From Clostridia bacterium DTU025 (GTDB lineage Bacteria; Bacillota; DTU025), in the NCBI GenBank assembly GCA_001513145.1, contig LFSP01000025.1, positions 12,967 to 66,786 of the forward strand: a stretch of DNA of 53,820 nucleotides, written 5' to 3'. A program made the translations under genes and the position numbers. Below, one piece after another: positions 13,815 to 15,934 of the stretch; the stretch's first letter is position 1, and each line of letters starts with the position of its first letter. The notes under the pieces were generated by a model, which saw only the letters and a list, made by a program, of their open reading frames with translations, did not search any database and had not been told where the DNA came from.

Positions 13815-14249
13815 CTAGTCGGCAGGGTCGGAGCCCGCCGAGGTGCCAGCCAGATCGCCCAGCGTGGTGGAGTCAAGTATTGAGACGATGCCCTTCTGCA
13901 GCTTATCCCATACAGGGTGGGCAGCGCACAATGACCTCTTGTGGCATTGCACCCCGTCGCGGTTCTCACTAGTGCAGTCGCACACCGCGATAGGGCCGTC
14001 CACGGCCCTCACCACGTCCGCTACGCTTATTGTGTGTGGCTCACGGGTTAACATGTAACCTCCGCCGGAACCCCTGGCACCGTGAACCAGCCCTGCTTTG
14101 CGCAGCTTACGAAACAGCTGCTCGAGATATTTCTCAGGTATGCCTTCCCTCGATGCCACTTCCCTGATGGAGATAGGCCCGGCTCCATGGGATGCAGCCA
14201 GCTCCACCATGGCCCTCACCGCGTATTCCGATCTGGAGCTCAATCGCAT
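13815..14249 (-). CDS. iscR: Rrf2 family transcriptional regulator, IscR-like
   Basis: 144 residues. A winged helix-turn-helix (RSEYAVRAMVELA through GARGSGGGYML) is followed by a cluster-binding region with C90, C92, C102 and C108. The spacing of the last three Cys fits an Fe-S-sensing IscR rather than CymR, which lacks them. It probably represses its own iscR-nifS-nifU unit when clusters are plentiful. The ATG at 14249 has AGGAGG 8 bases upstream. A sigma-A promoter and a dyad lie directly upstream. B. subtilis has cymR at this place. Confidence 0.9.
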   Translation of the reverse strand: MRLSSRSEYAVRAMVELAASHGAGPISIREVASREGIPEKYLEQLFRKLRKAGLVHGARGSGGGYMLTREPHTISVADVVRAVDGPIAVCDCTSENRDGVQCHKRSLCAAHPVWDKLQKGIVSILDSTTLGDLAGTSAGSDPAD

Positions 14250-14339: not shown

Positions 14340-14442
14340 CAATAACGGAAGGCAGGGTCACGCCGTAACCGCCCGAGTTCGGGGGCATGGCAGTTCTTGT
14401 GGTCCGGGCAGCGTGATTGTGGGACTGCTCCGGGTTTTCGAG

Positions 14443-15297
14443 GGGCAGCTCCGCCTCCGCTGGCGTCCACACGAGCCGCGCCGGCGCGGTTTCGGCGTTT
14501 TCGAGGAGTAGCTCCGTTTCTGCTCCTCGATCCGGAGGCGCAAACCCGCCACAGCTCCTCGATTCGGAGGAGAACACCTTTGTCGGGGCGTGTGCGATCG
14601 CCCTCGCCTGGGTCCCCTCAGCAACACACCTCACCTAGCTGCGTCTTTGTGGCAACGCCTTCGCGCGGCGACGCTTTCCGCTCAGCAGCTCCGCCTCCGC
14701 CGCCGTCCACACGAGCCGCGCCGGGGCGGTTTCGGCGTTTCCGAGGAGCAGCTCCCCTTCTGCTCCTCGATCCGGAGGCTCAACCCCGCCGCAGCTCCTC
14801 GATTCGGAGGAGAACACCTTCATCGTGGCGTGTGCGATCGCCCCCGCCGGGGCCTCCTCACCAAAGCACCTCATCTAGCTGCGTCTTTGTGGCAACGCAT
14901 TCGCGCCGCCGGGCTTTCCCATCAGCAGCTACGCCCCCGCCGGCGTCCACACGAGCCGCGCCGGCGCGGTTTCAGCGTTTCCGAGGAGCAGCTCCCCTTC
15001 TGCTCCTCGATCCGGAGGCGCAACCCCGCCGCAGCTCCTCGATTCGGAGGAGGACACCTTCATCGTGGCGTGTGCGATCGCCCTCGCCGGGGCCTCCTCA
15101 CCAACACGCCTCACCTAGCTGCGTCTTTGTGGCAACGCATTCGCGCGGCGACGCTTTCCCCTCAGCAGCTCCGCCTCCGCCGCCGTCCACACGAGCCGCG
15201 CCGGCGCGGTTTCGGCGTTTCCGAGGAGCAGCTCCCCTTCTGCTCCTCCATTCGGAGGCGCAAACCCGCCACAGCTCCTCGGTTCGGAGGAGAACGC
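14443..15297. repeat. Tandem array of a 240-bp hairpin-rich repeat (about 3.6 copies)
   Basis: Four copies in exact 240-bp register: 14443-14640 (truncated at its left end), 14641-14880, 14881-15120 and 15121-15297 (truncated at its right end). No indels separate them. Each unit has (a) CGAGGAGCAG and CTGCTCCTCG flanking an 8-base loop, (b) a short CTCC...GGAG hairpin just after, and (c) CTCCTC / GAGGAG with a 6-base loop. Three GCAGCTCC sub-repeats occur per unit. Differences cluster in the first 60 bases of the unit. On the minus strand one frame gives an 79-codon ORF per unit, joined TAG-GTG or TAG-ATG, with a nonsense change in the third copy; substitutions show no excess at third codon positions. 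No known gene is recognised. Confidence 0.95.
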
Positions 15298-15454
15298 ACG
15301 CGGTGGCGCCTTCCGAAAGCTGTAGTCGACGATCTAAGCGTCGCCGACATTCCGCCCCGCTGACGCCGCTTGGCCGCCGTCGGCGCCCCGCTGAGGCATT
15401 GCCGGAGATCGAGTGCGCCGGCGCGCCAATCACCGTGCGCCTATTCGGCTCGGG
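15298..15454. other. Intergenic sequence with no recognised gene
   Basis: GC-rich sequence between the 240-bp array and the 17-bp inverted repeat. Open frames run through it on both strands, as expected by chance at this GC content. I see no promoter, RNA or protein signature. Confidence 0.5.
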
Positions 15455-15496
15455 CCCCATGATCCAATGAGACCATCGACTCATTGGATCATGGGG
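15455..15496. repeat. Perfect 17-bp inverted repeat with an 8-base loop
   Basis: The arms CCCCATGATCCAATGAG (15455-15471) and its exact complement (15480-15496) enclose accatcga. No T-run follows on either strand, so it is not a standard intrinsic terminator. It stands between the repeat array and the only plus-strand gene. The sequence cagctaggtg at 15547-15556 is the inverted match of cacctagctg found at each junction of the 240-bp units. Confidence 0.9.
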
Positions 15497-15619
15497 CAGG
15501 TAATGCCTTCGAACGGCACGAATAGTGCTCTCACAGAAGGGTCTATCAGCTAGGTGCACCGGCGCGGCCCGGCCACGCCATGGCCTAAGAGCAAGGGAAG
15601 CGTGAAGGGAGGCGCATGC

Positions 15620-15934
15620 ATGCACGTTGGAGCCGCAATTGCCGTGGTGATACTCGCCATCACGGGCCTGGCGTCACTGTGGTTCGCACGCACCCTGGGC
15701 AAGGGGAGATTCGAGCTTATCAACGGATTCAAGCCTGAGAAAGCGAAGGACGCCCGCGCGCTCGCTGGCGTCCTGCGAATCTGCTATTCCATACTGGGCT
15801 GGGCGCTCCTGGGCTCCGCCTTTCTGACAGCAGGCACGGGCTCGTTGGCGGCAGGCCTGATCGCAGCGTCGCTCATCATCACCGTCACCCTGACGTTCAT
15901 GATATCGACAATGTCGAAGTACTACCGCCTGTAA
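15620..15934 (+). CDS. DUF3784-like small membrane protein
   Basis: About 104 residues, with membrane segments at the N-terminus (VGAAIAVVILAITGLASLWF) and two more in the second half, and a central loop reading LINGFKPEKAKDARAL. This layout resembles the DUF3784/SdpI-related proteins of Bacillota, which have no firm function. The ATG at 15620 has GGGAGG 7 bases upstream; an earlier ATG at 15554 lacks a Shine-Dalgarno. It is the only gene on the plus strand and converges on the ZIP transporter gene, 32 bp away, with no terminator between them. Confidence 0.7.
   Translation: MHVGAAIAVVILAITGLASLWFARTLGKGRFELINGFKPEKAKDARALAGVLRICYSILGWALLGSAFLTAGTGSLAAGLIAASLIITVTLTFMISTMSKYYRL

Follow-up and report, generated by a model that had tools for sequence, protein, structure and literature searches.

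A tandem array between iscR and a gene of no recognised family

The window, by which we mean the whole stretch of 53,820 nucleotides that was analysed, belongs to a draft genome of 2.0 Mb (here G000) and carries a tandem array between iscR on the left and a plus-strand gene for a protein of 126 amino acids on the right, the neighbours that a sequence-only reading of the same DNA had named. The array occupies 14445-15297 and consists of about 3.6 copies of a 240-bp unit with no indels between copies. This register, which the sequence-only reading had described correctly, is recovered by TRF (14445-15295, period 240, 3.5 copies, 90% matches, 0% indels, score 1429) as by far the strongest repeat of the window, and by a shift of 240 positions, under which 15-20 of every 20 bases agree across ~14440-15297 and identity is at background level outside. 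The copies themselves are not exact: their pairwise identity is 88-94%, with 28 differences between copies 1 and 2, 21 between 1 and 3, 10 between 1 and 4, 17 between 2 and 3, 8 between 2 and 4 and 11 between 3 and 4. The two stems described earlier, one of them CTCCTC/GAGGAG, are present, and the box sequence CTCCTCGATTCGGAGGAG with its variants occurs eight times in the window, always within the array, where 0.03 occurrences would be expected. The parts of the locus are as follows.

13815-14249, minus strand: iscR (Rrf2 family), left neighbour; Pfam PF02082, E=1.4e-41
14429-14444, no strand: degenerate extra box TCCGGGTTTTCGAGGG, read from the sequence, 63 bp left of the first box of cluster 1; probably a remnant at the left edge
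14492-14571, no strand: cluster 1; boxes 14492-14507 (left half degenerate), 14524-14539 and 14556-14571, at a 32-bp pitch
14635-14643, plus strand: AGCT-core motif CTAGCTGCG in linker 1
14732-14811, no strand: cluster 2; boxes 14732-14747, 14764-14779 and 14796-14811
14875-14883, plus strand: AGCT-core motif in linker 2
14972-15051, no strand: cluster 3; boxes 14972-14987, 15004-15019 and 15036-15051
15115-15123, plus strand: AGCT-core motif in linker 3
15212-15291, no strand: cluster 4; boxes 15212-15227, 15244-15259 and 15276-15291
15554-15934, plus strand: gene for the 126-aa protein, right neighbour; no confident family match

Measured between centres, the motif of linker 1 lies 75.5 bp from the third box of cluster 1 and 100.5 bp from the first box of cluster 2. 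Cluster 4 ends the array and is followed by no motif, and the shifted edge reported for copy 1 fits the degenerate box at ~14429-14444.

A family of arrays in two related genera

Searching the genome for further copies of the unit, as had been proposed, proved productive. DNA and pattern searches of G000 showed that many of its contigs carry clusters of this kind. A profile built from the sequence of 35 clusters alone (R1) then detected about 47 box clusters at about 13 loci. The layout of the unit is shared: three palindromic boxes of the form TCCTCC-n4-GGAGGA (consensus TCCTCCnnnnGGAGGA) stand 32 bp apart, separated by 16-bp spacers that are mostly unconserved, and are followed by a locus-specific linker of some 160 bp, in which only a motif of the CTAGCTGGG type, with an AGCT core, is shared among loci. 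The genes that flank the arrays may be divergent, convergent or co-directional, and they serve unrelated housekeeping functions. Some contigs end within arrays (C24 and C21, and the end of C40 and C5, each pair apparently being two halves of one array), and from these sequences the assembly appears to have been broken by the arrays. Beside the array of contig C32 lies a gene for a protein of 291 amino acids (L029:6400-7272), nuclease-like and with weak matches to helix-turn-helix families, which belongs to a multi-copy family with several copies in most genomes of the bacterial family; it was rejected as a trans-acting factor for the arrays, being present in relatives with and without them.

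The R1 profile also led to a second genus of the same family, represented by a draft genome (G004) in which about 10 loci carry related arrays. Its boxes read CCTCY-n4-GGAGG (consensus CCTCYnnnnGGAGG), so that between the two genera the box sequence has shifted as a whole set, from TGCTCCTCC..GGAGGAGCA in G000 to CGCCTCC..GGAGGCG in G004, as would be expected if a trans-acting protein co-evolved with it. Two of the placements are orthologous. At the PRC-barrel/spoIIR site an array occupies the same place in contig C51 of G000 and contig C96 of G004, within long collinear flanks. In contig C71 of G004, a tandem array (~246 bp) again lies beside iscR, with the orthologue of the 126-aa gene on its far side and collinear flanks; its boxes fall in assembly gaps, and the visible linker carries AGCTGAGTG.

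Beyond these two genomes the family appears narrowly distributed. A combined model (R2), run over 399 genomes of the phylum, found arrays only in the two genera (g1 and g5), with a few weak matches elsewhere and no comparable array. Pattern scans of about 85,000 GTDB genomes and of viral contigs found no relative; these scans demand the exact boxes of G000, so that a relative as diverged as G004 would escape them, and the collection may omit the genome of the window itself. Their one single match, in Paenibacillus camelliae, was unrelated on reading. Searches of phages and plasmids with blastn gave no relative, and arrays of this kind were described nowhere in the literature that we searched. 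The array beside iscR belongs to a family of tandem, non-coding arrays that had not been seen before and that occupies intergenic sites in two related genera.

Spacing is conserved in whole helical turns

The trait that these arrays have in common is spacing. Boxes recur at 32 bp in nearly every cluster of G000, with one case of 33, in a search that did not impose this spacing, and at 31 bp in every cluster of G004. The distances from motif to box, taken between centres, are 75.5 and 100.5 bp (±1; ranges 75.5-76.5 and 99.5-101.5) in 23 of the 28 units of G000, and the clean departures amount to +10 (C35), -11 (C36) and +32 (C32) bp; the two other departing units adjoin runs of N (C24 15228 and C32 5795). 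In G004, the motif stands 91 bp from the next box in eight of nine units and 90 bp in the ninth, and on its other side at 85, 96 or 107 bp, that is, in steps of 11, apart from one unit that contains an N gap and measures 93 bp. The departures are thus mostly whole helical turns (10-11 or 32 bp). Linker length is likewise kept: of the 25 units compared, 23 have linkers of 159-162 bp. The linker sequence, by contrast, has turned over between loci, identity being 33% between loci (27% for shuffled sequences; between-locus maximum 45%) versus 74% within a locus. A spacing constrained to whole helical turns points to double-stranded DNA bound by proteins.

The arrays also tend to take one orientation relative to GC skew, a modest signal that we regard as suggestive only. 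The orientation of the motif against the flanking skew is uniform in 10 of the 11 unambiguous loci of G000 (the exception being C40:102k, with C24|C21 ambiguous) and in seven of eight loci of G004, a count that includes one reversed cluster and omits one locus with near-zero skew. The polarity of the motif letters relative to the skew is opposite in the two genera, and, read along the G-rich strand, the side of constant distance (75.5 bp in G000 and 91 bp in G004) is the downstream one in each genus.

A proposed phased platform on double-stranded DNA

What is shown is a family of arrays that keep their spacing, that hold orthologous positions in two genera and that, as documented below, share neither a fold nor a reading frame. 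This suggests to us that the array may well be a double-stranded docking platform for putative DNA-binding proteins, a reading to which we would give slightly less than an even chance. The three boxes of a unit lie on the same face of the helix, since 31-32 bp make three turns, with the AGCT-core motif at a fixed phase to them, and because the units are repeated in tandem the lattice continues from one to the next. In such a platform, a lineage-specific dimeric protein would bind each box, three dimers would bind cooperatively in each cluster, and the motif would be recognised by the same or by a second factor; neighbouring clusters, held in register, could then form a large nucleoprotein complex. 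As unrelated genes have arrays upstream, downstream or between them, and as the arrays tend to keep one orientation with respect to the skew, the likeliest role of the arrays is at the level of the chromosome (anchoring, organisation or segregation) rather than in the control of iscR. A replacement of parABS by the arrays was considered and rejected, for ParB is present in 11 of the 12 genomes of the order regardless of whether they bear arrays. The purely double-stranded model accounts for the long perfect hairpins of some clusters only by mutation (template switching), and the family is known from two genera only, both represented by draft genomes.

Alternative explanations

The main rival is a non-autonomous mobile or recombination element, in which boxes and motif would be sites of a recombinase or transposase and the arrays would have grown by unequal exchange or through repeated insertion next to a box cluster already in place. 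The dispersed, intergenic copies agree with such an element, as do solo box clusters without a linker (C9 in G000, C54 and C1 in G004), the signs of tandem growth in the high linker identity within arrays, the absence of an array from the orthologous spoIIR/PRC-barrel site in G002, G003, G005, G006 and G008, and the finding that only about three of the ten G004 loci adjoin genes also found at G000 loci. These empty sites are too diverged to set the boundaries of an element, whether as terminal inverted repeats or as a target-site duplication. Weighing against mobility, the linkers of different loci bear no recognisable resemblance to one another, which speaks against any recent jump; both genera have an array at the iscR site and at the spoIIR site; no Y1 transposase was found in the two array-bearing genomes; and searches of phages, plasmids and viral contigs gave no match. 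We consider a mobile origin a possibility of rather low probability.

A structured RNA or an array of single-stranded DNA hairpins, the explanation that the sequence-only reading preferred, is unlikely. Hairpins can form in many clusters, and some are very stable (z down to -7.5 against dinucleotide shuffles); some pairs of boxes are exact reverse complements, unconserved centre included, and paired changes occur in C36 (TAGGA/TCCTA) and in C44 and C33 (GAGGG/CCCTC). The pairing partners, however, vary among clusters, being boxes 1 and 2, 2 and 3, 1 and 3, or box 2 alone. RNAalifold gave no covariation, its covariation term being about zero, and in two explicit structures (own-box and arm) pairing was no better than in shuffled sequences. 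Nor did folding energy exceed that of chimeras that keep the box half-sites and have the rest swapped between loci (mean z -0.21 in G000 and +0.44 in G004). Two outliers of the chimera comparison, the first cluster of L027 (z -4.9) and L038:8946 (z -3.0), have long perfect hairpins that look like products of template switching. Complementarity of the box centres looked significant for boxes 1 and 2 as written; since it involves different pairs in different clusters and is absent from the array of the window, we read it, too, as template switching. In three terminal clusters (L027:7862-7941, L034:5893-5973 and L037:10323-10402), hairpins of up to about 22 bp are centred on box 2. The unconserved spacers, moreover, keep an exact length for which loops of RNA or single-stranded DNA would have no need, no Rfam family matches at the array, and neither promoter nor terminator is predicted inside it. 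Neither RNAalifold nor the explicit pair counts nor the chimeras supported a fold as the maintained feature, and this reading was rejected. What stands of the earlier preference is its more general part: a functional non-coding element, as judged from the homologues at some 13 loci of this genome and 10 of G004 and from their orthologous siting, is strongly supported.

Slightly less probable again is a cluster of local operators that controls iscR or other neighbouring genes. An array does lie upstream of iscR in both array-bearing genera, and a further one separates a gene of the Fur family from its divergent neighbour. Against this, the predicted promoter of iscR (14339-14311, minus strand; sigma-70-like, TTGACA-17-TATAGT) is outside the array, other arrays are found between convergent genes (C46 and C44) or inside a gene run (ftsY-ylxM, C33) with no function in common, and related genera have no array upstream of iscR at the sites read.

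Neutral satellite DNA or a coding repeat is very improbable, for although tandem duplication alone could produce arrays and open frames run through this one, the spacing is kept at many diverged loci in two genera. The frames, one of 79 codons on the minus strand (14635-14874), as reported earlier, and one of 357 codons on the plus strand through the whole array, follow from 240 being a multiple of three; at most other arrays the units measure 241 or 242 bp and most have stops in every frame, which excludes a protein tandem repeat. The substitution count given earlier for copy 2 against copies 3 and 4 (28 sites, 12/10/6 over codon positions) has to be replaced by 17 (8/5/4) and 8 (4/2/2), respectively, and its conclusion of no excess at third positions holds.

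Relation to known systems

Intergenic repeats of bacteria are usually defined by their sequence and interpreted as mobile DNA or as hairpins, and dispersed repeats of the BOX, ERIC and bcr type form intergenic families that are limited to a lineage and likewise defined by sequence. The arrays resemble the latter as a lineage-restricted intergenic family and differ in being defined by helical-turn spacing with turnover of sequence. REPs are palindromes of 20-40 bp with GTAG or CGTC tags, many of them associated with RAYT transposases (PMC3733652, PMC3116915). Like REP, BIME and REPIN elements, the arrays are intergenic, palindromic, multi-copy and sometimes clustered in tandem; unlike them, they are built of 240-bp units with three phased boxes and a separate AGCT motif, and their boxes lack a GTAG or CGTC tag. 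Identity with REP/RAYT was rejected, as PF01797 (Y1/RAYT) has no match in G000 or G004, while G001, G003, G005 and G008 are positive.

The parS sites of ParABS are comparable as short palindromic sites on double-stranded DNA that are dispersed on the chromosome and bound by a dimeric protein, the binding being putative for the arrays. The boxes of the arrays, by contrast, change between sister genera and occur as phased triplets inside long tandem units; their consensus sequences (TCCTCCnnnnGGAGGA and CCTCYnnnnGGAGG) do not fit that of parS, and relatives without arrays have ParB just as often. CRISPR arrays share the regular alternation of conserved and non-conserved parts; as a layout, the present arrays differ in their 240-bp period, in linkers that are alike within an array and in variable boxes.

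What is conserved here, at about 20 loci in two genera, is a distance in whole helix turns, kept while the linker sequence turned over and the box sequence shifted as a set. Were the arrays to be recognised by a protein, they would show in nature how a DNA-binding protein and phased sites throughout a genome evolve together, and would perhaps amount to a further chromosome-organising system beside ParABS. It is conceivable, though on present evidence rather doubtful, that they represent a new class of chromosomal element, tandem, helically phased, conserved in geometry rather than in sequence and oriented relative to replication, on which lineage-specific protein complexes at a dozen sites would organise or segregate the chromosome alongside ParABS.

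Two further features of the window lie outside the array. Between the array and the 126-aa gene, a perfect 18-bp inverted repeat with an 8-nt loop (GCCCCATGATCCAATGAG/CTCATTGGATCATGGGGC) occupies 15454-15497; among the fetched loci, its 15-base core is found only in those covering the same place. The single Rfam match at gathering scores in the whole window, away from the array, is 6S RNA (RF00013; 18103-18281, minus strand, 67.4 bits).
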